Positions 6-27,693 of a stretch of DNA of 34,887 nt are shown here, one piece after another (the first letter of the stretch is position 1; each line of letters begins with the position of its first letter). The notes below the pieces were generated by a model. It ran no database searches, had not been told where the DNA came from, and worked only from the letters and a program-made list of their open reading frames with translations. Position numbers and translations under genes: made by a program. The DNA is from an uncultured archaeon. GTDB lineage: Archaea; Micrarchaeota; Micrarchaeia; CABMEP01. Location of the stretch: positions 1-34,887 of the forward strand of contig CABMEP010000052.1 in assembly GCA_902385155.1 (NCBI GenBank). The letters run 5' to 3'.

Positions 6-3000
6 TTAGCCGTTGCTGATCTTACCGTTTATTTTGTTATTGTTCGTGAAAGGGTTGATAATCAGACTTATTGTGTTGCTTGGGCTGGCTGTGACGCTCA
101 CATTGTCGCAGCCTACGAGGCCGATCATGGCGTAATTGGAGCCAAGGTCAAGGACTTGGCTGTTTGAACACAATCGATTTACCCCGTCATAATACTCTAT
201 CGGAAGGCCATTGATCTTGTTGGTTCGGTCTATGCTGTTCTGGAAGTACCCGATGCTGGTTCCGTATAGGTATAATCCAGATATGCCTTGATCCACTGAG
301 ATGTTGTTGTTTGCGAATGTGTTGCTGCGGCTGAAGGTGAGGGACACGCCATAGTCGCCAATGCTGGTGATGCTGTTGTTGGTAAATGTGTTGCTGGCGC
401 AGAAGTCGAGTTGCACGCCGCGGCTGGTCGTGCTGGTGATGTTGTTGGATATGAAGATATTGTTGTCGGAGTGGAACCAAATGAATGCACCATAGTCGCC
501 TGTGCTGGTGATATTGTTGTTTGTGAAGTTATTGCCGGAGCTGGATGAAAGCACCAAGCTACGGTCGATTGGGGCAGTGATGTTGTTGTTTGTGAATGTG
601 TTGCTGGAGCTGGAAGAGAGGGACGCGCCGGCGCCGATCGTGCTGGTGATGCTGTTGTTGGTGATTATGTTGCCGGAGCTGGATTCGAAATAGATGCCTT
701 GATTGTTCGAGCTGACAGTGTTGTTGGAGATTATATTGCTGAAGCTTGAGCTAAGGAAGATTCCATTGCCGTTTGAACTGATAGTGTTGTCTGTGAGCGT
801 ATTGTTAGCACCAAAGTGGATGAACATGCCCTGATTGTTTAAATCGACAGTATTGTTCGTGAGAGTGCTGTTGGAGCTGGATTCTAGGTAGATACCGATG
901 TCACCATTTGAGCTGGCGATATTATCTGTAATACTATTATTTGAGCTGGAATCAAGGCGGATGCCTTGCTCGGTATTCAAACTGACGGTGTTGTTGGTGA
1001 TGATGCTATTCGAGCTTGAGGAAACGAAGATGCCCTTGCTGAAATTCATGACGATACAATTTTTCACTACGATATTGCTCCAACCACCAGCATTGTCGAT
1101 TCCATTGCCTGCGCCATTGCCGGTGATGCTATGGCCTTGGCAGTCCAGAGTGATGTCATCGACACCGATCGTCAAGGCGGTTCCTGTGCACTGCAGGTCT
1201 TCAGAGAGTACGTAGTCGCCGCTAGACGAGAGAGTTATGCCACAGTGGTTGGTCAGATCCAATGATCTGGTCTCGGAATAACCTATATTGAACGCAGTAT
1301 CGGTGCAATCGACGCTCCAGCTATAGTTGCCAGATGGTAATGAGAAGAATGAGAACGAATCAATGGCCGCATTCACGGAATTGGCCACAGTCTGGTTGAT
1401 CGACCCATTGATGTAGAGATGACATATCCTCATAGTTTGGGATGCATCATCTGTAACATTGAATCTGAATTCCATGCTGGAAGCGTTTATGTTCGCATCG
1501 TTGTCTGGCGAAACTAGGATGACGTTTGGCGGAACAGTGTCCGAAGTGCCCGAACTGGTGTCATACTGCGCCAGTGGCAAGGCATCTATCTCATTCACGC
1601 CCAGTTGATAAGATAGGTCGCAGATTCCTGAGAGGACCGTATCGCTGCAGCCTTGGGAGAATCCATCATCGCTTGGAGTGGCATAGAAGTTGCCGCCGAT
1701 GCACGGTCCGCCCATGATGTTGAGGATGCTGGGGCCGCAGTCGAGAGAAGTGCTCCAGAAATTTAAATTGTCAGAATAGAAGGCGGAATTGTCCGTGTTA
1801 TTGAAGAAGTTGTTGTATATGATGTTGTTCGAGCTGGAAGAAAGGAAAATAATACCTTGATTGTTCGAACTGACATTATTACCGGAGATGGTGTTGTTGG
1901 AGCTGGATTCGAAATAGATGCCTTGATTGTTCGAGCTGACAGTGTTGTTGGAGATTGTGTTGTTGTTCGAGCTGAAGTAGAGATGGATGCCTTCGTTACT
2001 GTTCAAGTCGACAATATTGTTGTAGACCGTGTTATCGGAACTGGATGAGAGCGCGATGCCGCTGTCACCGCTATTAGAACTGACGGTGTTGTTGGCGATA
2101 GTGTTGTCGGAGCTGGAGCTAAGGAAGATTCCATCATTGCCGTTCGAGCTGACATTATTGCCGGAGATAGTGTTGTTGCTGGAGTCGTATTGGAGGAAAA
2201 TACCGCTGTTACCATTCATATCGGCGGTGTTGTTGATTATGATATTGTTGTTACATTCGGGGTCGATCCAGATGCCCTTGTCGCTGTTCGAACTGAAATT
2301 GTTGCCGGATATGGTGTTGTTGCTGGAACTGGAAGAGAGGAAGATACCTCTCTGATTTGAGCTGGCAGTGTTGTTGTAGATCATTCCGTAACTGGCCCCG
2401 CTGAAAAAGATGCCGAATTCGAATCCATTGATGATGCAATTCTTCACAGTGACATCGCCATGGCCGGTATTGTCGATTCCATTGCCTGCGCCATTGCCAG
2501 TGATGCTGTGGCCGTTGCAGTCAAGAGTGACATTATCGTATCCGATCGAGCAAGTGCCGTCGATGTTCCCAGCAAGCACGTAATTTCCTGACGAAGTAAT
2601 TTCACTGCAGTCAGATATTTCAACTGATGAGGGCGCAGACGGATACGCCAATGGCAATTCGTCGACATTGCTGCCGTCGATCTCGTATGGCACGGTGCAG
2701 ATCCCGCTGGAGTTCGATGATCCGTTAGTGGAGCAGTTCTGCGAGAATCCGGTGCCGGACGGATTGGCGTAGAAGTTGCCTCCAATCCATGAACCGCCCA
2801 TGATGTTCGTTCCGCTGTGGAGAGTGGTGTTCCAGAGATTGGAGGACCCACTAGTTATTGATACTGCCGTAGTGCTGTTGATAAAGTTGTTGTAGAATAG
2901 GTTATTCAAGCTACTGTCTATGCTGATCCCGGATGAGACACTACTTATGATGCGGTTTGAGGCAAAAATGTTGTCGGAACTGGATTCTAGATACACTCCG

Positions 3001-3887
3001 ACGTCATTCATGCTGGTAATGTTGTTAGAGATGAATGTATTGTTGTTGGAGCTAGACTCAAGCCACGCGCCGATGTCATTCGCGCTGGAGATGCTGTTGT
3101 TAGTGAATATGTTGTTGTTGGAATTGTATTCCAGATATACGCCATTGCTGTACTCGCCGGTGCCCGTGCTGGAAAGATTGTTGGAGATGAATGTGTTGTT
3201 GTTGGAGTTGAAAGTGAGGATTAAGCCTTTATCGTAATCAGTGGTGATGGTGTTATTCGTGAATATATTATTTGAGCTGGAATAGAGGGCCGCGCCGATG
3301 TCATTCGCGCTGGAGATGCTATTGTTGATGAAGGTATTATTGTTAGGGTCGGAGTATAGGACCGCGCCGATGAAATTCGTGCTGGAGATGTTATTGAAAA
3401 TGAAGATGTTGTCGTTGGAGTTGGAAAAGATGGCCACGCCGCAACTGTCGTTGCCGCTTGAGGATATATCGCTGTATTGGATCATACTGTTGCTCGTGTC
3501 GGATAAATAGACTGCATGCGCGTTGGAGACACCGGAATTCGTCTGCATGATATTGCAGTTCTTTATGACGGTTCCATTAAACCCTGTGATATCGATTCCG
3601 TATCCAGTCTCGGACTGGGCGTAGGTGATCGTGCTGCCGTTGCAGTCCAAGGTTATGCCGCTTGCGCCGATTGTCAGAGCTGTTCCGGAGCAGGGAAGAT
3701 CGGACGACAGGTTGTAGTTGGAGGTAACGGTATCCCCGCAGTTGCAGATTGTTACGCCACCGCAGTCGGCGGCGTATGCTAGGCCCGCGAAAAACATGAC
3801 TAATAATATTATAGTAATAATAGGAAGTCGCTGGGATGCAGATGCGCGGCTCTTGCTTGTATGAAAAGTCACATGTGTGGCGCACAT
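6..3887 (-). CDS. Secreted multi-module parallel beta-helix (NosD/PbH1-type) surface protein
   Basis: A 1293-residue protein with an N-terminal signal peptide: a basic stretch, then a hydrophobic core (about 21-39) ending in LAYA, followed by Cys-rich mature sequence. Most of the rest is Asn/Ser-rich PbH1 repeats of the form SSSNNTIxxNxxSSN, which build right-handed parallel beta-helices. Three related modules start near residues 41, 420 and 880, each opening with a GNYVL- or LTIG-like capping segment and LDCNGxxIT. Between modules 2 and 3 (about 770-880) lies an Ig-like segment beginning VPPNVILVSP. The C-terminal end carries the KINGLPIEYYDG motif seen in NosD-like proteins. I see no C-terminal membrane anchor or sorting motif, so it is either released or held non-covalently. 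The coding sequence looks AT-richer than its neighbours. Function is probably surface or carbohydrate binding; an enzymatic (lyase) role cannot be excluded. Confidence 0.85.
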   Translation of the reverse strand: MCATHVTFHTSKSRASASQRLPIITIILLVMFFAGLAYAADCGGVTICNCGDTVTSNYNLSSDLPCSGTALTIGASGITLDCNGSTITYAQSETGYGIDITGFNGTVIKNCNIMQTNSGVSNAHAVYLSDTSNSMIQYSDISSSGNDSCGVAIFSNSNDNIFIFNNISSTNFIGAVLYSDPNNNTFINNSISSANDIGAALYSSSNNIFTNNTITTDYDKGLILTFNSNNNTFISNNLSSTGTGEYSNGVYLEYNSNNNIFTNNSISSANDIGAWLESSSNNNTFISNNITSMNDVGVYLESSSDNIFASNRIISSVSSGISIDSSLNNLFYNNFINSTTAVSITSGSSNLWNTTLHSGTNIMGGSWIGGNFYANPSGTGFSQNCSTNGSSNSSGICTVPYEIDGSNVDELPLAYPSAPSSVEISDCSEITSSGNYVLAGNIDGTCSIGYDNVTLDCNGHSITGNGAGNGIDNTGHGDVTVKNCIINGFEFGIFFSGASYGMIYNNTASSNQRGIFLSSSSSNNTISGNNFSSNSDKGIWIDPECNNNIIINNTADMNGNSGIFLQYDSSNNTISGNNVSSNGNDGIFLSSSSDNTIANNTVSSNSGDSGIALSSSSDNTVYNNIVDLNSNEGIHLYFSSNNNTISNNTVSSNNQGIYFESSSNNTISGNNVSSNNQGIIFLSSSSNNIIYNNFFNNTDNSAFYSDNLNFWSTSLDCGPSILNIMGGPCIGGNFYATPSDDGFSQGCSDTVLSGICDLSYQLGVNEIDALPLAQYDTSSGTSDTVPPNVILVSPDNDANINASSMEFRFNVTDDASQTMRICHLYINGSINQTVANSVNAAIDSFSFFSLPSGNYSWSVDCTDTAFNIGYSETRSLDLTNHCGITLSSSGDYVLSEDLQCTGTALTIGVDDITLDCQGHSITGNGAGNGIDNAGGWSNIVVKNCIVMNFSKGIFVSSSSNSIITNNTVSLNTEQGIRLDSSSNNSITDNIASSNGDIGIYLESSSNSTLTNNTVDLNNQGMFIHFGANNTLTDNTISSNGNGIFLSSSFSNIISNNTVSSNNQGIYFESSSGNIITNNSITSTIGAGASLSSSSSNTFTNNNITAPIDRSLVLSSSSGNNFTNNNITSTGDYGAFIWFHSDNNIFISNNITSTTSRGVQLDFCASNTFTNNSITSIGDYGVSLTFSRSNTFANNNISVDQGISGLYLYGTSIGYFQNSIDRTNKINGLPIEYYDGVNRLCSNSQVLDLGSNYAMIGLVGCDNVSVTASPSNTISLIINPFTNNNKINGKISNG
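675..732. repeat. 58-bp exact repeat, copy 1, inside the beta-helix gene
   Basis: These 58 bases recur identically at 1899-1956 in the same gene, in the same reading frame. The copies encode one PbH1 repeat unit of module 3 and one of module 2. Identity at the DNA level, including silent positions, points to recent duplication or gene conversion between modules. Confidence 0.85.
1899..1956. repeat. 58-bp exact repeat, copy 2, inside the beta-helix gene
   Basis: Second copy of the 58-base repeat at 675-732, about 1.2 kb away. The flanking repeat units are only partly similar, so the exact identity is local rather than spread over the whole module. Confidence 0.85.
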
Positions 3888-5233: not shown

Positions 5234-6055
5234 TCATTCTTCTGCGTCGGCATTGAGCTTGAGCTTGCCCTTCTCTATCGAGTAGGGGATCCATCCCTTG
5301 TCCTTGATGCTGAGGTATCCGCTCGCCCTCATCTTGCCGTCCTTCATCTCCACAAGGCAGTCCACGAGCGAAGTGACCATGGACTCGAACTTGGAGTCGT
5401 GGACGCCCATCTGCATGGACAGCAGCATCGTGGCGCCCGCGGCCTTCAGCTTGCCCATGAAGAACTGCAGGAAGCGGAATGTCTCCTCCTCGCCGAACAT
5501 CTCGACGAGCGTGGATATGGAATGGAGAATGACCATCGGCCTCTTCTTCATGCCTGACGCCTTCGCCACGAAATTCGAGGTCTCTATGGACAGCGCGCTC
5601 AGCGAGAACGGCACCTCTAGGCACAGCACGGTGTCCGAATTGGAGCACGTGCCGAACTGCTGGGAATAGCCGTCGACGAAGAACGTCCTGTCCCTCACCT
5701 TCCCGCAGTCCCACCCGCCCTGCTTCATCATGGACTGCCAGGCTGACGCGCCGACATCGGTGAGCACGAATATGACCGGCCTGCGGTTCCTGCAGCATTC
5801 GGAATGGGCTGCGTTCATGAGCGTCGGCTTCTTGCCGCAGTGCGGCACGCCGAGTATGAGGAGGGACGACCCCTCCATTATCCCGCCGCCGAGGAGCCTG
5901 TCGAAATCGGGGCTGCCCGTCGGAAGCAGCTTCGAGGACGGGCTCGTCCGGGCGGGCATGGCCGCCTTCCTCTTCGCCTTTGGCGGCGCTTTCGCTGGTG
6001 CCTTCCTTTTCGTTCTCCTGGGCTTCGCGGCCCTCTTGGATTTACCGGCTGCCAT
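5234..6055 (-). CDS. KaiC/RadA-like RecA-fold protein with degenerate ATP-binding motifs
   Basis: A 273-residue protein. Residues 1-42 form a Lys/Arg/Ala/Pro-rich tail of the kind that can bind nucleic acid. The RecA-fold core follows, opening LPTGSPDFDRLLGGGIMEGS, which is the standard KaiC/RadA entry. The P-loop position reads GVPHCGKKP (69-77): the Ser/Thr after the Lys is replaced by Lys-Pro. The Walker B strand reads PMVILHSIS (173-181), with His where the usual VxxDS Asp stands. ATP hydrolysis is therefore doubtful, and the protein may be a pseudo-ATPase adaptor. The start is supported by GAGGATG 5 bases upstream of the ATG. It lies just upstream of hisS and shares an AT-rich promoter region with the divergent mre11. 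Partner and role are unknown. Confidence 0.8.
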   Translation of the reverse strand: MAAGKSKRAAKPRRTKRKAPAKAPPKAKRKAAMPARTSPSSKLLPTGSPDFDRLLGGGIMEGSSLLILGVPHCGKKPTLMNAAHSECCRNRRPVIFVLTDVGASAWQSMMKQGGWDCGKVRDRTFFVDGYSQQFGTCSNSDTVLCLEVPFSLSALSIETSNFVAKASGMKKRPMVILHSISTLVEMFGEEETFRFLQFFMGKLKAAGATMLLSMQMGVHDSKFESMVTSLVDCLVEMKDGKMRASGYLSIKDKGWIPYSIEKGKLKLNADAEE

Positions 6056-6090
6056 GGCGCATCCTCGACGTCCAGTATTGGTATTAGTGG

Positions 6091-6099
6091 GTTTTTAAT
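6091..6099. promoter_or_regulatory. Shared AT-rich promoter element between mre11 and the KaiC-like gene
   Basis: The sequence GTTTTTAAT sits about 35 bases before the mre11 GTG on the plus strand and about 40 bases before the KaiC-like ATG on the minus strand. Both distances allow a TATA box with a leader of roughly 10-15 bases. It is the only AT-rich tract in the 74-base gap. Confidence 0.5.
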
Positions 6100-6129
6100 C
6101 CTTCTAGCAGTAGTCTGGACAGTGATCCC

Positions 6130-7335
6130 GTGATCGTTGGAATTCTTTCGGACACCCACCTGGGATATCCCAGGTTCTACGAGGACTCGTTCTCCCAGTT
6201 CGACGAGGCGTTCAGGGCGGCCTGCGACGCGTCCGATGTTGTCATCATACCGGGCGACATATTCGACACCAAGGTCCCGCGGTTCGAGGTGATAGCGCAG
6301 GCGATGCATCTCTTCGAATACGGCAAGGCCAAGGACTGGGCTGCGAAAGGGGTGAGGAGAGTCGACAGCCCCGGCATGAAGGACAACGTGGAAGGAGACC
6401 TTCCGGTCGTCGCGATCCACGGCACCCACGACCGCAGGTCGAAGGAAATGATCAATCCGGTCCAGCTCCTCGCGAAGTCCGGTTTCGTCACCAACGCGAG
6501 CGATGGGGCCGCCATATTCGAGAAAGACGGGGAGAAAGTCGCGATACACGGGTTCGGGGGCACTCCGGAAGACGAGGTTCACGAGGCGCTCAAGGCGAGA
6601 GAGCTGAAGCCGATTCCTGGCGCGTACAACATACTCGTATCCCACCAGACGATAACCGATGTCATCCCGGTGGCGCAGGGCATAACGCTTGAGGACCTGC
6701 CGCCGGGATTCGACCTCTACCTCAACGGCCACATACACAAGAGGCACCTGATCACGCGCAACGGGAAGACGCTGCTGATACCCGGCAGCACGGTGATCAC
6801 CCAGCTGAAGAAGGAAGAGGAGGAGCCGAGGGCGTGGGTGCGGCTCGACACGAGGAAGAAGGAGATCAAGTTCATCGACATCAAGAGCAGGCCGTTCCGC
6901 CACATAGAGCTCTCGTTCGAGAAGGCGGAACCGGGCCAGATAGCCGACAGATGCAGGAAGGAGATCGAAGCGGAGCTGGCGAAGGGGGAGGACATGCCCA
7001 TCATCCGCGTGCAGCTCAAGGGCAGCGTGAAGGAAGGCTTGAAGAGGGAGAACATCGACCTCTCGTCGCTGAACGAGCTCTATGGCGACAGGTGCCACCT
7101 CCAGGTGGACAACGAGCTCGACTCGCAGGGGCTGAAGGAGAAGATGGAGTCGCTGCGCAAGATGTACGAGCAGAAGATGTCCGTCAGGGAGATCGGCGTG
7201 CAGATGCTGAAGCAGAAGCTCGCAGCCACCGCGAAGGCGAATGGGAGCAAGGCGGTGGATGTGGAGCGCCTGATGGACCTGCTCCAGGACGACGGCAGCA
7301 TAGACGCCGCCATAGAGGAGATGACGAAGGAGTGA
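6130..7335 (+). CDS. mre11: Mre11-like DNA double-strand-break repair nuclease
   Basis: Calcineurin-type phosphoesterase of 401 residues, matching the nuclease that works with Rad50 at DNA ends. The metal-site motifs appear in order: SDTHLGY (Asp8, His10), GDIFD (Asp43), HGTHD (97-101), VSHQTI and NGHIHKRH. A helical C-terminal region follows, as expected for Rad50 binding. The third motif reads HGTHD rather than the usual HGNHD, so the Asn metal ligand is replaced by Thr. Translation starts at GTG 6130, with CAGTGAT 3 bases upstream. Rad50, HerA and NurA are not in the window. The next gene starts 5 bases after the stop, so the two probably form an operon. Confidence 0.9.
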   Translation: MIVGILSDTHLGYPRFYEDSFSQFDEAFRAACDASDVVIIPGDIFDTKVPRFEVIAQAMHLFEYGKAKDWAAKGVRRVDSPGMKDNVEGDLPVVAIHGTHDRRSKEMINPVQLLAKSGFVTNASDGAAIFEKDGEKVAIHGFGGTPEDEVHEALKARELKPIPGAYNILVSHQTITDVIPVAQGITLEDLPPGFDLYLNGHIHKRHLITRNGKTLLIPGSTVITQLKKEEEEPRAWVRLDTRKKEIKFIDIKSRPFRHIELSFEKAEPGQIADRCRKEIEAELAKGEDMPIIRVQLKGSVKEGLKRENIDLSSLNELYGDRCHLQVDNELDSQGLKEKMESLRKMYEQKMSVREIGVQMLKQKLAATAKANGSKAVDVERLMDLLQDDGSIDAAIEEMTKE

Positions 7336-9023: not shown

Positions 9024-11744
9024 TCACTCGCGCTGGTAGTGGTTCATCGCGTACCAGGTGAGCTTGGCGAGCGCCTTCGTGGCGACATAGATGGAGGTGT
9101 ACGTCGGGACGCCGCCCTCCTCTATGATCTTCCTGTTGTTCTCGGTGTAGTCGCCGCCGATGGTGACGAGTACGATCGGCTTCTTCATCTGCTGCGACGC
9201 GTTGACTATGACATCCACCACTCCCGCGTCCATGTTGGACGTCTGGAACAGCGGAGTGAGGACGATGGAATCGACATTGTCGTCCAGGAGGAGCCGGTCG
9301 AGCGCGAACTTGAACCGCTTTGAATCCGCATCGCCCGCGAGATCGAGCGGATTCGCGATGTTGATGTGCACCGGCATACTGTCCCTGAGCTCCTGCTTGC
9401 TGACTTCGCTCAATTGCGCCATCTTCAGCCCGTGGGTGGCGACCCAGTCGGAAGTGAGGACGCCGATCCCTCCTCCGTTGGTGAGTATCGCGACCCGGTC
9501 CCCTGTCGGGAACGGCTGGAGGAACACCTTGGAGAAATCGAAGAGGTCCGTGAGGGACTCCACCTCTATGATGCCGGCCTGCCTGAACGCCGCGGAATAC
9601 ACGGCGTAATCCCCGGCCAACGCGGCGGTGTGGGACGCGGCCGCCCTGGTGCCCGCCTGCGTCTTACCCGCCTTGATTAGTATGATCGGTTTCGTCTTGG
9701 TGATCTCTCGCGCGACATCGAGGAATCGCCTTCCGTCGCGCACTCCCTCGATGTACATCGCTATGACCTTGGTCTTGGGGTCGTCACGCAGATGCTCGAG
9801 AAGATCGGTCTCCGTAACTACGGCAGCGTTCCCGTAGGAGACGAACAGCGACATCCCGACACCCATCTTGGCGGCGAGGTCCATGACCGCCGCACCGATG
9901 GCGCCGCTCTGGCTGATGAATGCGATCTCCCCCTGCTTCGGCCTGCCGAGCTTGTAGACAGGATTGAATACCGAATCGACGCGCATGCCCGGGTTGATCA
10001 GGCCCATGCAATTTGAAGTTATGATGCCGTTCGCTACAAAGTTATGTGTGCCTTCAACTTCGAAGTCATAGAGTTCCATCTCCTGGTCCAGCCGTTCGAT
10101 ATCCTTGATGTGGGCATCAAACACTGGTTTAAGGACTGAGTTGGAAACTGATGGAAGCATGATGGCGCTCTCCAATTTTTTCTGTTGCTTCTTGAACATG
10201 AAACTGAATCCTAATGAATGAAGCCGCTTTATCGCTCCTACGTTCTCTATCCGAACAGCATACAGGTCTCGTGCAGGGTAGACCTTTCCATTGAATGTTG
10301 CGATCTTCCTGTTCGCCTTAGACACGTACCCTCTTACACCGAGCATGGCAAGCAGATATAACACGTCATGGGCAAGGCCTTCCGATACAGAATAGAAATA
10401 GAGGTACGCTCTGTTGTCTGATTGGTAGATTCCTCCATCCCCTGAGAACAGACCCGACAGAAACGCGGCTATGCGCTCGGGCTTTGCTGAGAATATGAAC
10501 TCGGGAGCTCGTTTATTCTCTGCGTACCTTGGTATTCCGAATACATCCTCGAATACGAACCTCCCTATCTTCCTGCCGAACTTTATCTTGTCTGTCGAGG
10601 CGGTCGACAGGTCATTGCCGAAAACCGCCTTGATGCAACGGCACATTTCGCTGCGTTCATCGCTGTTATCGACATATCCTATTGAGAGATGATCGGTCGA
10701 GTAATTGCCATCGGCTACGAAGAAACCGCAGAGCTTCGAAAGCTCATCCGTTATCTCCACGACAGGACTGAGCCTTGTCCGGCTTGATTTCCAGGACAGA
10801 TAGTCCGGCTCCTTATGCATTCTATTATAAGGCTTGAACACGCCGGTGCTGTCGAGATGGAACTGTGCATTAGCAAGGCTTATCTTCAATCCCTCCGCGC
10901 TGTTCACTTGAGTGTTATTGGCAGAGACCCTTGATACGAGCCTTTGAAGCAAGTTCACGCTTGTTTCGTGAGTGCTGTTCTCGATGAAACCTGCGCATGG
11001 AACGCTCTCGTCTCCTGTAAGCGCCCTGCACGGAACTTTCACGTCATTTCCGGTAACGATGAAAGGATGGTCACCGCTGCATACGAGAGTACGACCGCCG
11101 TTCAGCCTGACTCGATAGTTATCGGATGAGACCCGTTTGAACACTTTTGTTATTCTCTTGAATACGATTCTCGATCCGTCCGAGGATGCAGTATAAACGC
11201 CTTCGTTACCATCCAAGTTGAGCATAAACGTACCATTGATGTTTACCACTTCGTTGCTATGTTGAAGCAGCAGTGAATCAACCACGTCTCCAATCTGTCT
11301 GTTGCTTATCTTGCCGTCGTTTTGGATCAGGACATAAGTGTCTTTTGAGACACAGTTAGGGCCGATGACCGCCATGCTGCTCTCCTTGGCGATGCGCTTG
11401 ATCTCCTCCTCGCCCTTCACGTTGCCGACCTCTGCGAACCCGCTGGTGATGATGACGGCCGCCTTCACTCCCTTGTCCGCGCATTCCTGCAGCACGCTGA
11501 GGACCGCCTGCGGCGGGGTGACTATGATCGCGCAGTCCACCGGAGAAGGGATGTCCTTGACAGATGCGAAGCTGTGCTGGTAGAGTATGACATCTGCGGT
11601 GGGATTGACTGGATACACCTGGCCGGAGAAACCCCCTTCCACGAGATTCTTCAGTATCACGTGGCCGATCTTCGTCGGGTCCCTGGATGCCCCTATGACC
11701 GCTATGCTCTTCGGCTGGAACAGGGGCGTGAAATCGAATGCCAT
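9024..11744 (-). CDS. ADP-forming acyl/acetyl-CoA synthetase alpha subunit, interrupted by an intein
   Basis: The precursor has 906 residues; removing the intein (131-578) leaves 458, normal for the alpha subunit. It makes acid, ATP and CoA from acyl-CoA, ADP and phosphate, giving substrate-level phosphorylation in archaea. The N-terminal CoA-binding domain opens PKSIAVIGASRDPTKIG. The succinyl-CoA-ligase-like part carries ISQSGAIG and AASHTAALAG, whose His (residue 695, or 247 after splicing) matches the phosphohistidine of the family. A third domain follows from NGGGIGVLTSD. The insertion splits the conserved GPN/CMGL motif. The matching beta subunit lies two genes upstream in the same direction. 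The start has GAGTGAT just upstream and lies 4 bases after the Nudix-like gene. Confidence 0.95.
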   Translation of the reverse strand: MAFDFTPLFQPKSIAVIGASRDPTKIGHVILKNLVEGGFSGQVYPVNPTADVILYQHSFASVKDIPSPVDCAIIVTPPQAVLSVLQECADKGVKAAVIITSGFAEVGNVKGEEEIKRIAKESSMAVIGPNCVSKDTYVLIQNDGKISNRQIGDVVDSLLLQHSNEVVNINGTFMLNLDGNEGVYTASSDGSRIVFKRITKVFKRVSSDNYRVRLNGGRTLVCSGDHPFIVTGNDVKVPCRALTGDESVPCAGFIENSTHETSVNLLQRLVSRVSANNTQVNSAEGLKISLANAQFHLDSTGVFKPYNRMHKEPDYLSWKSSRTRLSPVVEITDELSKLCGFFVADGNYSTDHLSIGYVDNSDERSEMCRCIKAVFGNDLSTASTDKIKFGRKIGRFVFEDVFGIPRYAENKRAPEFIFSAKPERIAAFLSGLFSGDGGIYQSDNRAYLYFYSVSEGLAHDVLYLLAMLGVRGYVSKANRKIATFNGKVYPARDLYAVRIENVGAIKRLHSLGFSFMFKKQQKKLESAIMLPSVSNSVLKPVFDAHIKDIERLDQEMELYDFEVEGTHNFVANGIITSNCMGLINPGMRVDSVFNPVYKLGRPKQGEIAFISQSGAIGAAVMDLAAKMGVGMSLFVSYGNAAVVTETDLLEHLRDDPKTKVIAMYIEGVRDGRRFLDVAREITKTKPIILIKAGKTQAGTRAAASHTAALAGDYAVYSAAFRQAGIIEVESLTDLFDFSKVFLQPFPTGDRVAILTNGGGIGVLTSDWVATHGLKMAQLSEVSKQELRDSMPVHINIANPLDLAGDADSKRFKFALDRLLLDDNVDSIVLTPLFQTSNMDAGVVDVIVNASQQMKKPIVLVTIGGDYTENNRKIIEEGGVPTYTSIYVATKALAKLTWYAMNHYQRE
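10011..11354 (-). mobile_element. Intein with LAGLIDADG homing endonuclease, in ACD alpha
   Basis: In-frame insertion of 448 codons (host residues 131-578). Block A starts with Cys131 in CVSKDTYVL. Block B is around CSGDHPFIV (222-230) with His226. The two endonuclease helices are LCGFFVADG (338-346) and LSGLFSGDG (429-437). Block F is YDFEVEGTHNFVANG (559-573). The end is ITSN followed by extein Cys. The terminal Asn and +1 Cys are the expected splicing residues, but the penultimate position is Ser rather than the usual His. The intein DNA looks AT-richer than the flanking extein, which fits horizontal spread. Boundaries are set by restoring the host motif GPNCMGL and the normal host length. 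Confidence 0.93.
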
Positions 11745-21641: not shown

Positions 21642-21715
21642 GGGGTGGTAGTCTAGCCTGGTATGATGCTTGGTTCGGGACCAAGAGGTCGTGGGTTCAA
21701 ATCCCATCCACCCCA
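21642..21715 (+). tRNA. tRNA-Pro(CGG)
   Basis: Acceptor stem GGGGTGG/CCACCCC with discriminator A. Anticodon stem CTTGG/CCAAG with loop TTCGGGA gives anticodon CGG at 21676-21678, reading CCG. The T arm is GTGGG-TTCAAAT-CCCAT. CCA is not encoded and I see no intron. A T-tract at 21723-21730 follows. Confidence 0.95.
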
Positions 21716-21722
21716 CTTGAGA

Positions 21723-22677: not shown

Positions 22678-25125
22678 TCAGAAGAGCGTATCCTGCTCAT
22701 GGGAGATGCCGGCTATCCATACGTTCGGATCGCCTTCGGCGACCGCGTTCAGGACATCGCGTACTTCCGCCGACCTTGATGGGAACGCGGACACCAGGAG
22801 ATCGCCGATCGTGCCGCTGGAGAGATCCCTGCTCCCGCCGTTCCTCTTGCCGAACATCCTGTCGAGATACCTCCCTTTCGCGACGAGCACCTCTTCGGAT
22901 AGCTCATCGGAGAGGAACAAACGCGCCGGGACGTCGCCCTCGTATCCGGAGGAATACTCCTTGCCCCGCTCGTCCCTGCCCGGAAGGCCGTTGGCGAGCT
23001 TGGCGTAGGCGTACGAGAGCTTTTCGCCCTTCTTGACCCCGTACTTCACCATCATCTTGCTCCTCTCCTGCTTGAACGACGCCGCGGAGAAGTTCTCGTT
23101 GTCCATCCTCGCCGTTGTGTCGAATACGAGCTTCTCCCTGGACATCGTGCCCTCCACGAGGCACTTCGTCGTCTCCCAGACATAGGAGAGCGCCTTCGCC
23201 TTGTGCTCGAACACCAGCTTTCCGAACTCCGGTATCATCTCCTGCTCCAGTACCGTCTTGTGGCCCTTCCTCCCGGTCGGGTCCCTCTCCTCCGACAGTA
23301 TGTTGCCGTCCGCCGTCCTGTAGAGCACCCTTCCCTGGGTCGCGCTGAGCACGTCGGCCCTCCCGAGGTCGACGCCGAGCCCCGATCCCGTGAGCTCGCG
23401 CAGCGCGTTCCCGTGCTTTGGCTTCGCGAACAGGAACCTGTCGGAGTGGTTTATCACGTCCAGGCCGTTGAGGCCGCGGACAACGAGGTCGACGGAGTCG
23501 CAGATGCTGTTCGTGACGGTCTGGAAATTGTTGGGCCGGTACCCACCCGCGTGATGGTATCCTTGGGAACCGATTCCGTACTTGAATCCAAAATACACGT
23601 CGCTCGGCATCTCGGCGTCCGTCACGTCGAAGGGGGAATGGATCGGGCCGAGATCAGCGACGCGGATCCTGCGCATGCGGCACAGGTCGTATATCATCTT
23701 CTCGATGTAGCCGTTGAGCGCCTCCGCGAAGAGCACGCGCGTCTTCGGGTCGGCGGACTCGTCCATGAACCCCTTGTACAGCGCGGCTCCGGCCTTGTTG
23801 AATGCGGCGTACCTGCCGAGCGCATGGATGAACGGTGTGAGATAGATCACGTGAGCGTTTCTGAAGAGGCCGCGCTTGGCGCCGACGCATCCGGGATCGA
23901 GCTTCTTCAGCATCACGTACTTGGACGCCTCGAGGTCGAATTCCCTGAACTCGTCGTCAATGCCTCCCTTCTCCACCGTCTTCATCTGCGTCATCTGCCT
24001 CTTGCTGTCGAGGTCCATCGCGATGTTCTTCCTGCCGGTGGTGCAGATGGTAGACGGGCTCGCTCCATAGAACATGGATGACCGGATCACATGCGGGAGT
24101 ATGAAGCTGCCGACTTCGTAAGCGTAGATGCTGTCCTTCAGGTTGTAGATGGCGATCTCGGTGATATCCGCAGGATCCTCCTCTTCCAGCATCTCGTCGA
24201 TCTGATCATATGAGAGGTCCTTCTTCACTTCCTTGCCGAGAAGGTAGCTGCCGACTGTCACGAGCTTGTTGTTGGGGGTCCAGCCCCAGTTGGCGGACCA
24301 CGATGCGGTGTCGATGACGCAGCGGCCCTCTATGCCGACGCGCTTGAAGAATCCGCAGTTCGCCTCGAGCCTCGGCGCGCCGCCGAGCACTCCGGGACAG
24401 AATCCGCCAGTCTCCTTCAGCTTGAGAAGATCATACGTCCCGACGTTGCTCCCGTACACGAACAACGGATCGTAATCCCGGAACAGCCCATTGAGCTTCG
24501 CGATCAGCCCTGCCTCGTCCGTGCAGGGGACGAGCTGCGCGGAAATCCCTGATCCCGCCAGCTTCGCCAACATGATGCCGGAATCTGCTTCGGGGGTGCT
24601 GATAACGTAATTACCGAAATTCGACTTGGTGACAAAGGAAGCCTGGTAAATTGTGCCCGCCCTAGCCCCTTTGCCGCGCCAGTCCCTGACTTCGAGGTCG
24701 AGGGCCGCCGCCTTCTCAACAAGCAGATCATCGATGCTGTCGCGCGGCAGGAAGATGACGTTGTCGCCGTCAAAACGAACGAATGAGAACGGCTCTGCTC
24801 TCCAGCGCAAGAGCTGGGTCGCACCGATCCTGCTCACCATGTACTTGTACGATCCGAGCTGCTCCTTCATCTCCTTGGGCCCCTTCGCCCAGATCGCCGC
24901 CTTCTTCTTGCCGCATTCCTTCAGCTCGAATGCGATGGATGGATGCCGCGCCCTGAGCTCGGCCAGCTTGGCCTCCGCGACCCTCTTGTCCATCCTGATA
25001 GACGGCATGATGTGCGGCAGTTTCACGGTCCTGGTGAATGACTTCCCGTTCTCGCGCAGGAAAAGGATGACGTCGTCGCCCCTCTGGACGTTGACCGGCC
25101 TCGCGCTCACTAGATACGGCGGCAT
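22678..25125 (-). CDS. Family B DNA polymerase homologue with disrupted polymerase site and retained exonuclease motifs
   Basis: About 815 residues from ATG 25125. It follows the family B layout: N-terminal domain, 3'-5' exonuclease, palm/fingers and thumb. The exonuclease motifs look intact: LDLEVRD (Asp143, Glu145), YGSNVGTYDLLKL (Asp232) and YNLKD (Tyr327, Asp331). The polymerase motifs do not. Motif A should be DxxSLYPS, but here it is FDLEASKYVML. Motif C should be YGDTDS, but here it is INHSDRF, losing the first Asp (His560) and keeping the second (Asp562). No clear KxxxNSxYG motif B is visible. Inactivated family B relatives are known in archaea (PolB2-type). It probably acts as an exonuclease or structural factor. 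The start is set by TATA element 25145-25154, which predicts a leaderless transcript; the TTG at 25140 is less likely. Confidence 0.8.
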   Translation of the reverse strand: MPPYLVSARPVNVQRGDDVILFLRENGKSFTRTVKLPHIMPSIRMDKRVAEAKLAELRARHPSIAFELKECGKKKAAIWAKGPKEMKEQLGSYKYMVSRIGATQLLRWRAEPFSFVRFDGDNVIFLPRDSIDDLLVEKAAALDLEVRDWRGKGARAGTIYQASFVTKSNFGNYVISTPEADSGIMLAKLAGSGISAQLVPCTDEAGLIAKLNGLFRDYDPLFVYGSNVGTYDLLKLKETGGFCPGVLGGAPRLEANCGFFKRVGIEGRCVIDTASWSANWGWTPNNKLVTVGSYLLGKEVKKDLSYDQIDEMLEEEDPADITEIAIYNLKDSIYAYEVGSFILPHVIRSSMFYGASPSTICTTGRKNIAMDLDSKRQMTQMKTVEKGGIDDEFREFDLEASKYVMLKKLDPGCVGAKRGLFRNAHVIYLTPFIHALGRYAAFNKAGAALYKGFMDESADPKTRVLFAEALNGYIEKMIYDLCRMRRIRVADLGPIHSPFDVTDAEMPSDVYFGFKYGIGSQGYHHAGGYRPNNFQTVTNSICDSVDLVVRGLNGLDVINHSDRFLFAKPKHGNALRELTGSGLGVDLGRADVLSATQGRVLYRTADGNILSEERDPTGRKGHKTVLEQEMIPEFGKLVFEHKAKALSYVWETTKCLVEGTMSREKLVFDTTARMDNENFSAASFKQERSKMMVKYGVKKGEKLSYAYAKLANGLPGRDERGKEYSSGYEGDVPARLFLSDELSEEVLVAKGRYLDRMFGKRNGGSRDLSSGTIGDLLVSAFPSRSAEVRDVLNAVAEGDPNVWIAGISHEQDTLF

Positions 25126-25144
25126 GACTAATTTGAACAAAACT

Positions 25145-25154
25145 CATTTATATC
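25145..25154. promoter_or_regulatory. Bidirectional TATA element between the pseudo-polymerase and Cas4-like nuclease genes
   Basis: CATTTATATC reads GATATAAATG on the other strand. It lies about 25 bases from the polymerase-like ATG (25125, minus) and about 34 bases from the nuclease ATG (25184, plus). It is the only TATA candidate in the 58-base gap, so both genes probably fire from it. Confidence 0.65.
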
Positions 25155-25183
25155 TCTGACGCCTTAACACATAGGCGAATCTG

Positions 25184-27457
25184 ATGTATGTGGAATCCGG
25201 ATCCGTATTGTCCGACCCTCTGAAGATCGAGAGGCTCTACAGGGTCCTGGGCGCTTTCCTGGACGGCGGGACGCATCACCCAATCAGATCGTACGACTCT
25301 ATCCTCCAATCCGCCAAGGCCAAGGCGGAAACCGGAGAAGGCATGGGCTCGCTCAGGAAGTACGTCCAGTACTCCGACATGCTCCTCGCGAGCCTGCCGA
25401 AGCTGAAGGGCAAGCGGATCGTATTCATCAACGGCGTCTCCACCGACAAGACGGAGAACGCCAAGCCGGGCAGGAGCGGGGTCGACCCGTTCTCTCCGTT
25501 CTACGGGCTTTCCGAGGACATCATCGGCATGTTCAGGTCCCTTCCGGACGACGTCAAGGGATACGTGAAGGACAATATCATATTCTGGCCGATCGGGCCG
25601 TTCGATTTCCCATTCACCGTGGAGGACGGCAGGGTCGTCCACTGCCTCAGGGACGAGGTGACCGCGCTGAACGACGAGATAGAGGGCGAGGGCAGGATCG
25701 GATTCGGGTCCCTGACCAAGGAGATGCGCCAGCCCGAAGGCACCTACCAGATAGGAAACTACCAGTTCAACGAGCGGCTGTTCGACATGGGCAGGCTGAA
25801 GAAATCGCTGGAGGACAATCCCTCGATGTACGTCATGGAGAGGCAGAGGTTCGAAGGCACGAAGCCGTTCCTCAGGCACCTGTCCAAGCACACCGCCCTC
25901 GGGAAGTGGCTCCTCGCCCAGAAGTACGCGAGCATCGCTAAGCGGCTCGGCCTGCAGAAAGTCACGACGTTCTTCACCAGGACATCGTACGCGCGCGAGG
26001 TGTTCGACATCGTCGCGAAGGAGACCGGGATCGGGCTCGACAACGTGCTGAGGAGCAAGAAGGAGATGACGTTCCTGAAGGAGCGCGACCCAACCTACAT
26101 CAACCAGCTGATGGGGCGGCTCCAGATCTGGGCGAACGATGCAGGCATTCCCCTCACGTCCGTCCGCGGGATACGGAAGCAGGAGAGCGCGGAGACTCGC
26201 GTCGCGGGAGGATGCGGCAGCTGCATCAGCTGCTCGAGGCATCCGCTGTTCAGGTGCGAATACGACGCGCACGCATGCTCCACTCTCCCGAGGCCCCGGA
26301 GATGCACCGCCGATTTCATAGACGAATTCATGATAGGCAACCGCGAGGCGAGGGAACTCTTCATCGCCCTGGAGAAGGACGCCAAGAGATACGCCTACGG
26401 GGTGCTGCCGATAGAGATGACTCTCCTGCTGCTGAACAGCAGGGACCATGAGGTGGTCGTCAGCCGCAGGGGAAGGGCGTCCCTCATGGAGGAGATCAGG
26501 GGCCGCATCATAGTGCCGTTCCCGATAAGGGATACGACAGCCGAAGGCTGCGAGCTGAGGGCCAGCGAGTTCGGGAGCGCCTGCCCGATCACGGGTGTAT
26601 TCTCAAGGATGGACAAGGACAGCTATCCCGCGAAGACGGACACCTCTTTCGCGGAGATCGGCACCGCGCTGCACTGGATGATCAACCAGCAGCCGCCGGA
26701 ATGGAAGACATTCCTCCACAACAAGCTGCTCACGAAGCTCGGCATACCCGCGATACCAAGGCAGGAGTATTGCGAGCGCTCCATGGTGTTCGACTGCGAC
26801 GGAGTGAAGGTCTCCGGGCATCCGGACGGCATCACCGCGGTGATACCGATGGACGCGCTGGCGGAATACGGCAGGTCGCTCGCCGTGCCCAGGGACAGCG
26901 ACATATTCGTCCAGGACATCAAGCGCGGGATGTACTCGGCGTACGAGAAGATCGGATACCGCAAGCAGCTGCTGTGCTATGCCCTCGGCATCAGGCAGAA
27001 TCAGCACATGACGTCGAGGAACCTCTATCTCAACCTGATAAAGACGCCGTTCGACTCCAGGCGGTTCCTGAGGCACGAGGAGACGCCGATCCCTGAACGG
27101 AGGGAGGAGGCGTACCGCAACCCGAGGTACTCCATCATCAAGGTGCCCGCGCAGTCGGAGGAAGTGGACCGGCTCGTCGCTGAGATAAAGGAGAGGGCCG
27201 AGGCGAAGAACAGGATACTCCACGACAACAGGGCCGCGAGGGAGGAGCTGATGCGCAGGCAGGCGACGGACGAGTGCGGCTGCGGGCTCAACCGCTTCCC
27301 GTGCTTCGACAAGCCGATATGCGACAGCATGTTCAGGGAGATGGGAGAGAAGAAACGCATGATCGACGTGATAAGGCAGTACGGCCCCTATCCGGCGCAT
27401 CCGCGCAGGTCGGAGCTTTTCGGCAAGGACCACGGCCAGATCAGGATCCCGCAGTGA
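25184..27457 (+). CDS. Cas4/RecB-like PD-(D/E)XK nuclease with C-terminal cysteine cluster and large novel N-terminal region
   Basis: A 757-residue protein. The C-terminal part has the RecB/Cas4 nuclease order: GTALHWM (His497), VSGHPDGI (Asp548), VQDIKRG (Asp578, Lys580) and YRKQLLCYALG (Gln595, Tyr599). Cys698, Cys700, Cys707 and Cys713 after the nuclease, plus Cys456 or Cys467 before it, match the split Cas4/AddB type of 4Fe-4S site. A second cluster (Cys344, 347, 350, 358, 365, 374) lies mid-protein and could bind zinc or another Fe-S centre. Residues 1-330 match nothing I know; no Walker A or helicase motif is visible, so this is not a normal AddB. It shares a promoter with the pseudo-polymerase. 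No Cas1, Cas2 or CRISPR array is nearby, so a DNA repair role is more likely. Confidence 0.75.
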   Translation: MYVESGSVLSDPLKIERLYRVLGAFLDGGTHHPIRSYDSILQSAKAKAETGEGMGSLRKYVQYSDMLLASLPKLKGKRIVFINGVSTDKTENAKPGRSGVDPFSPFYGLSEDIIGMFRSLPDDVKGYVKDNIIFWPIGPFDFPFTVEDGRVVHCLRDEVTALNDEIEGEGRIGFGSLTKEMRQPEGTYQIGNYQFNERLFDMGRLKKSLEDNPSMYVMERQRFEGTKPFLRHLSKHTALGKWLLAQKYASIAKRLGLQKVTTFFTRTSYAREVFDIVAKETGIGLDNVLRSKKEMTFLKERDPTYINQLMGRLQIWANDAGIPLTSVRGIRKQESAETRVAGGCGSCISCSRHPLFRCEYDAHACSTLPRPRRCTADFIDEFMIGNREARELFIALEKDAKRYAYGVLPIEMTLLLLNSRDHEVVVSRRGRASLMEEIRGRIIVPFPIRDTTAEGCELRASEFGSACPITGVFSRMDKDSYPAKTDTSFAEIGTALHWMINQQPPEWKTFLHNKLLTKLGIPAIPRQEYCERSMVFDCDGVKVSGHPDGITAVIPMDALAEYGRSLAVPRDSDIFVQDIKRGMYSAYEKIGYRKQLLCYALGIRQNQHMTSRNLYLNLIKTPFDSRRFLRHEETPIPERREEAYRNPRYSIIKVPAQSEEVDRLVAEIKERAEAKNRILHDNRAAREELMRRQATDECGCGLNRFPCFDKPICDSMFREMGEKKRMIDVIRQYGPYPAHPRRSELFGKDHGQIRIPQ

Positions 27458-27527: not shown

Positions 27528-27613
27528 GCAGGGGTGGCGGAGCTTGGTCAATCGCGTAAGGCTCAGAACCTTATGCCTTAGTGGCTGCAAGGGTTCAAAT
27601 CCCTTCCCCTGCA
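27528..27613 (+). tRNA. tRNA-Leu(CAG)
   Basis: A class II tRNA with a long variable arm. Acceptor GCAGGGG/CCCCTGC, discriminator A. Anticodon stem TAAGG/CCTTA with loop CTCAGAA gives anticodon CAG at 27564-27566, reading CTG. The variable arm is GCC-TTAGT-GGC and the T arm AAGGG-TTCAAAT-CCCTT. No intron; CCA not encoded. Confidence 0.96.
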
Positions 27614-27693
27614 CTCCAGACCTTTTCCTCGGCAGAACGCGCGGGACCGATATGTTTATGTCCAGTCCCGCATGAATGAATCAAGGTGAACGC

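Follow-up and report, generated by a model that had tools for sequence, protein, structure and literature searches.

A divergent gene pair in a micrarchaeal genome: an apparently exonuclease-only, fast-evolving derivative of family B DNA polymerases and a probably lineage-specific, predicted RecB/Cas4-type nuclease

The window (the whole stretch of DNA analysed, 34,887 nucleotides of contig C52 of the draft genome G000) carries two large genes transcribed away from each other. P1 lies on the minus strand (ORF 22678-25140 in the ORF list, with an ATG at 25125, giving a gene at 22678..25125), and P2 on the plus strand (25184..27457), where it encodes an orphan protein of 757 residues that carries a RecB/Cas4-type nuclease domain. 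The two ATG codons are separated by exactly 58 bases, and the only TATA-like element found in this gap is the near-symmetric CATTTATATC (25145..25154, no strand), some 25 bases away from the start codon of P1 and 34 from that of P2. Both ORFs are surely coding, and their codon-bias scores (286 and 293) are the top two in the window. Their GC3 values (0.84 and 0.87) are those of the host and therefore give no sign of recent arrival. The ORFs and the gap sequence agree with the original prediction, which described two large divergent genes, a 58-base gap and a single TATA element at 25145-25154. It also held that no CRISPR, Cas1, helicase or transposon gene accompanies the pair: none of the CRISPR, helicase or transposon type occurs among the identified window genes, and Cas1 was not found anywhere in the draft genome.

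The pair is surrounded by genes for a nitroreductase, tRNAs and an amidase, and the same contig encodes HisRS, ArgRS, an Mre11-like protein, SecD and further chromosomal genes. Its small genome and its gene content suggest that G000 is a DPANN archaeon. Two other window genes include low-GC sequence: a 1293-aa repeat-rich protein encoded at 6-3887, low in GC (47%), resembles a right-handed beta-helix surface protein, and an acyl-CoA synthetase-like gene (906 aa, 9024-11744) is interrupted by a low-GC, intein-looking stretch, its best match in the related genome G001 spanning residues 573-906 only (72%).

P1 comprises 815 residues with its initial Met (residue numbers follow P0001, in which this Met is not counted). 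Single-sequence searches reached DNA polymerase II only, over residues ~200-342, i.e. the exonuclease domain (PDB 1q8i, E=4.5e-5; NCBIfam, E=2e-4), with E. coli Pol II as the nearest named match; no Pfam family was found at cut-off. A family B polymerase (PolB) profile, built from the polymerases of relatives and those returned by a pattern scan of genome contigs, scored 42.8 bits on P1 against 2.4 bits for the best of 100 shuffles, and recognised two regions, the exonuclease domain (E 6e-13) and a thumb-like region (E 6.5e-5; residues ~640-703, 23014..23205, minus strand). Profile-profile comparison (hhalign) gave a probability of 97 over 690 aligned columns, in a colinear, full-length alignment. 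Exonuclease and thumb being both recognised and the alignment colinear, P1 qualifies as a homologue of family B polymerases. This identification rests on sequence because AlphaFold2 gave no usable model (mean pLDDT 38, low confidence).

The exonuclease motifs can be followed one by one along the minus strand. Exo I is D142-L-E144 (24691..24699), ALDLEVRD falling on AFDIETYN of PolBs; it precedes a long insert, and one of three alignments (a tool alignment with four PolBs only) did not place DLE on FDIE. Exo II, SNVGTYD231 (within GSNVGTYD, 24430..24450), and Exo III, Y326-NLK-D330 of the DEDDy type (24133..24147), were located both by the alignments with PolBs and by the 1q8i match. By sequence, P1 hence displays the DxE, N-x3-[FY]D and Yx3D signatures of a DEDDy exonuclease.

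Bacterial DNA polymerase II and archaeal PolBs share with P1 the exonuclease domain, the thumb region, the overall length and the order of motifs, but palm motifs A and C of P1 lack the catalytic aspartates and its C-terminus has only a truncated PIP-like end, EQDTLF. Indeed, Tyr427 in GLFRNAHVIYLTPFI (23842..23844, minus strand) takes the place of the catalytic Asp of D-x-x-SLYPSI in both alignments. At motif C, S560-D561-R562 (23437..23445, minus strand) stands for D-T-D, or else ICD at 540-542 does; the DxD pair is absent in either case. With the SDR choice, motifs A and C are 133 residues apart, as compared to 130-167 in canonical PolBs. Neither the motif A Asp nor the motif C DxD of an active family B polymerase is present, and the polymerase site of P1 looks dead while its exonuclease site looks intact. 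G000 encodes a separate PolB, split by a contig break, whose Exo I, Exo II and motifs A and B are canonical.

Two known cases resemble P1 in part. Like P1, archaeal PolB2 (Dpo2) is a family B paralogue that exists alongside a canonical PolB and has substituted polymerase motifs (PMC2527604, PMC4104785, PMC11791011). Since PolB2 proteins with a substituted motif C were once called inactive and later shown to be active (PMC11791011), we considered that P1 might still be a translesion polymerase of this type despite its odd motifs. This is very improbable: PolB2 lost its exonuclease site first and sits with the iRadA and PPB2 genes (PMC4104785, PMC11791011), whereas P1 retains its exonuclease motifs, has both palm metal-binding motifs changed and adjoins no RadA-like or PPB2-like gene. 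Keeping the exonuclease and dropping the polymerase would be the reverse of the path described for PolB2. The nearest parallel in pattern is poxvirus F12, an inactivated family B polymerase in which the polymerase motifs are lost and the exonuclease motifs better conserved (PMC4304020), but F12 differs in lineage and role, P1 being an archaeal chromosomal gene.

In P2, the motifs of a RecB-type PD-(D/E)XK nuclease (H, D, DxK and QxxxY, in that order) occur on the plus strand as GTALH497, GHPD548, D578-I-K580 and Q595-x3-Y599 (QLLCY), at 26660..26980. The loose motif pattern also fits 27 of 5000 shuffles (0.5%), so that the motif set alone is modest evidence. The C-terminal 300 residues match the PHROG exonuclease family phrog_466 (E=1.2e-4), and a profile comparison gave a weak score, though one higher than those of 150 shuffles. 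Six cysteines precede the nuclease domain, in the cluster C344-x2-C-x2-C-x7-C-x6-C-x8-C374 (positions 344, 347, 350, 358, 365 and 374; 26213..26305, plus strand), and four follow it (C698-x-C700-x6-C707-x5-C713; 27275..27322, plus strand). Cas4, AddB and RecB nucleases likewise have cysteines flanking the nuclease domain, together with GxxxH, GxxD, DxK and QxxxY (PMC3466216, PMC5704561). However, Cas4 binds Fe-S through one N-terminal and three C-terminal cysteines, and Cas4 and AddB space them as CxxCx5C (PMC3466216), whereas P2 has six upstream and ends in Cx6Cx5C; it is also 757 residues long, with an N-terminus of ~330 residues that has no assigned family, and has no match in Pfam, NCBIfam or PADLOC, to a Cas4 model or to any other. 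P2 can therefore be called Cas4-like, membership in Cas4 itself lacking both a model match and the spacing. Solo-Cas4 genes outside CRISPR loci are common in DPANN archaea (PMC5704561). The AlphaFold2 model of P2 was of low confidence (mean pLDDT 33). On both proteins the original prediction held up: a pseudo-polymerase with a family B exonuclease site for P1, in view of the Exo motifs, the lost motifs A and C and the PolB profile, and a RecB/Cas4 nuclease site with cysteine clusters for P2, in view of the motif set, the PHROG match and the cysteine positions.

We then compared the locus with two genomes of the same family, G001 and G002. Estimated completeness is 83% for G000, 92% for G001 and 54% for G002, and absences therefore weigh mainly in G001. 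As HtrA was not found in the relatives, synteny was anchored on ArgRS, which is 70% and 69% identical to that of G000 in G001 and G002. The order ArgRS, tRNA-Pro, X, tRNA-Leu is the same in both, the anchors in the window being tRNA-Pro(cgg) (21642..21716, plus strand) and tRNA-Leu(cag) (27528..27614, plus strand), common to all three genomes. Between the tRNAs, G000 has the nitroreductase, P1 and P2; G001 and G002 each have a single PolB-like ORF (1097 and 1085 aa, 55% identical to each other). These two proteins display Exo I FLDIE, Exo II PYDL and Exo III YSxxD, and their motif A, GVFRNVRIAYIPL, has the same Asp-to-Tyr change as P1. Their profile matches PolB in profile-profile comparison (E 8e-6), and the G002 protein matches Pfam DNA_pol_B_exo1 (E=7e-5).

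Direct similarity to P1 is low: identity is ~20%, the hhalign E-value of 0.17 is not significant, the G001 and G002 proteins are ~280 residues longer, His replaces the Exo II Asn, and beyond motif A no clear alignment is obtained. Nevertheless, P1 is likely orthologous to them, given the synteny, the common descent from PolBs and the Asp-to-Tyr change found in all three. Other window genes with G001 matches are 44-72% identical (mostly above 54%), as against ~20% for P1, which therefore appears to evolve very fast. A match of IleRS to P1 in G001 was put down to chance. Searches for relatives of P1 returned canonical PolBs only, and a profile of the G001 and G002 proteins matched no other genome of the phylum.

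P2, on the other hand, is absent beside the counterparts of P1 (in G001, 115 bases remain before tRNA-Leu), and searches of 627 kb of G001, of 300 other genomes in the phylum and of a broader set of 395 genomes treated as relatives found no homologue; as P2 has no known relatives, some of this absence may reflect homologues that escaped detection. The one match, in G060, was spurious, as it overlaps another gene and contains a stop. Independent occurrence of the two families, which according to the original prediction would count against a pair, was thus seen in part: the PolB-like gene occurs without P2 in G001 and G002, while P2 is known from one genome.

The varying content of the interval (nitroreductase, P1 and P2 in G000, one ORF in G001 and G002) and its tRNA flanks could also be those of a hotspot for mobile or defence cargo, with P1, P2 and the G001/G002 protein as independent arrivals, remnants of viruses, plasmids or casposon-like elements. 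PolB and Cas4-like genes do co-occur in some mobile elements. We regard this as unlikely, however, for in all three genomes the locus codes for a PolB derivative whose motif A has undergone the Asp-to-Tyr change, GC3 is host-like, G000 has no Cas1, and a search of the locus revealed neither clear flanking repeats nor an element integrated between tRNA repeats; the combination of Cas1 and terminal inverted repeats that defines a casposon is not present at the locus. Nor did a closer relative turn up among viruses, phages or plasmids: scans of viral sequences with P1, P2, A5 and domains of both proteins, and tblastn searches of phages and plasmids, yielded generic polymerases and nucleases only, namely PolBs or a small phage nuclease (L014). 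Pattern scans were run with A1-A3, alignments whose randomised rows keep the motifs only and so serve as patterns for searching, not as actual sequences; in the genome contigs they returned four canonical PolBs for P1 and nothing for P2. A second PolB in the relative G019, checked because of its weak score, is not P1-like. This divergent protein of 909 residues (L036, G019:C2:36000-48000) is encoded ~3 kb from a Cas1 gene and possibly belongs to a casposon.

We also determined how common such promoters are in 278 kb of G000. Simple codon-bias gene calling there yielded 244 pairs of neighbours, of which 33 diverge. Besides P1 and P2, four divergent pairs are separated by gaps of 34-51 bases, and a single symmetric TTTAAA-type element lies near the centre of each gap (L063 10531-10566; L061 16464-16515; L047 6703-6755; L050 14987-15039). 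They join an S49 peptidase to CarS, MGMT to an unknown protein, MgtC to an aminotransferase, and an unknown protein to MsrB; none of the four has related family names, two members being unnamed. A symmetric TATA box of Pyrococcus was shown to fire in both directions, from start sites 49 bases apart (PMC6640164). The four similar pairs and this documented bidirectional TATA box lead us to regard the single promoter of P1 and P2 as a local habit rather than a sign of joint function. The claim that a shared promoter implies fixed stoichiometry and a joint task was thus not borne out, four similar pairs having no evident joint task; where archaeal genomes are this compact, a common TATA element is by itself poor evidence of a common function. 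In G000, tight divergent promoters of this kind, with one symmetric TATA element near the middle, look like a genome-wide habit, and suggest leaderless transcripts.

These data bear on whether the pair forms a dedicated two-component end-processing system, in which P1 would trim 3' ends and P2 resect the other strand, both expressed from a bidirectional promoter. Divergent adjacency, the single TATA element, the same codon bias and the prediction of both products as DNA nucleases speak for it, and NurA was not found in G000, G001 or G002, so that a resection partner may be missing. But 10 of 21 genomes likewise yielded no NurA, most of them being without the P1/P2 pair, compact divergent promoters are common in G000 and otherwise join proteins without related names, and the P1 counterparts in G001 and G002 do without P2. 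We therefore hold a dedicated system to be doubtful: since sister species have a P1 counterpart at this position but no P2 next to it, P1 and P2 are probably not a dedicated pair.

The explanation that we favor, with a probability of roughly 0.6, is that P1 is an exonuclease-only PolB relic, inherited vertically and evolving very fast, and P2 a separate, lineage-specific nuclease co-expressed with it by default. It starts from what is read in the sequences themselves, namely the motif content, the synteny, the absence of P2 beside the P1 counterparts and the promoter base rate; from there, we infer biochemical activities, DNA binding and a repair or defence role for P1 and P2 as follows. A family B polymerase ancestor of P1 would have lost its synthesis site but not its DEDDy 3'-5' exonuclease site, and would have been passed down at one locus between tRNA-Pro and tRNA-Leu. 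P1 would most likely use the former polymerase scaffold to grip primer-template junctions or the 3' ends of DNA, and would trim these, in repair or in the removal of foreign DNA. P2 may have joined, or survived, in the G000 lineage only; its fold would be stabilised by a metal or an Fe-S cluster, and it probably cuts or resects single-stranded DNA. One TATA element would bring about co-expression by default, which is not proof of a complex: joint work is possible but not required.

On this favored explanation, a PolB relic has apparently become fixed at a single locus of an archaeal family and diverges far more quickly than the genes around it. If its exonuclease is active, P1 would be a test case for the conversion of a replicative enzyme into a nuclease, and the speed of its divergence would hint at conflict with foreign DNA. 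A bolder proposal, which we consider improbable, is that P1 and P2 form a new two-component end-processing or defence machine, the dead polymerase acting as a DNA-gripping 3' exonuclease that recruits a RecB-like nuclease, with the PolB-like proteins of the sister species as an older, single-component form.

Finally, the window contains a second divergent pair, at 5234-7335. Adjoined by no Rad50, HerA or NurA gene, it consists of a KaiC-like ATPase gene and an Mre11-like gene separated by a gap of 74, and both have neighbouring homologues in G001.
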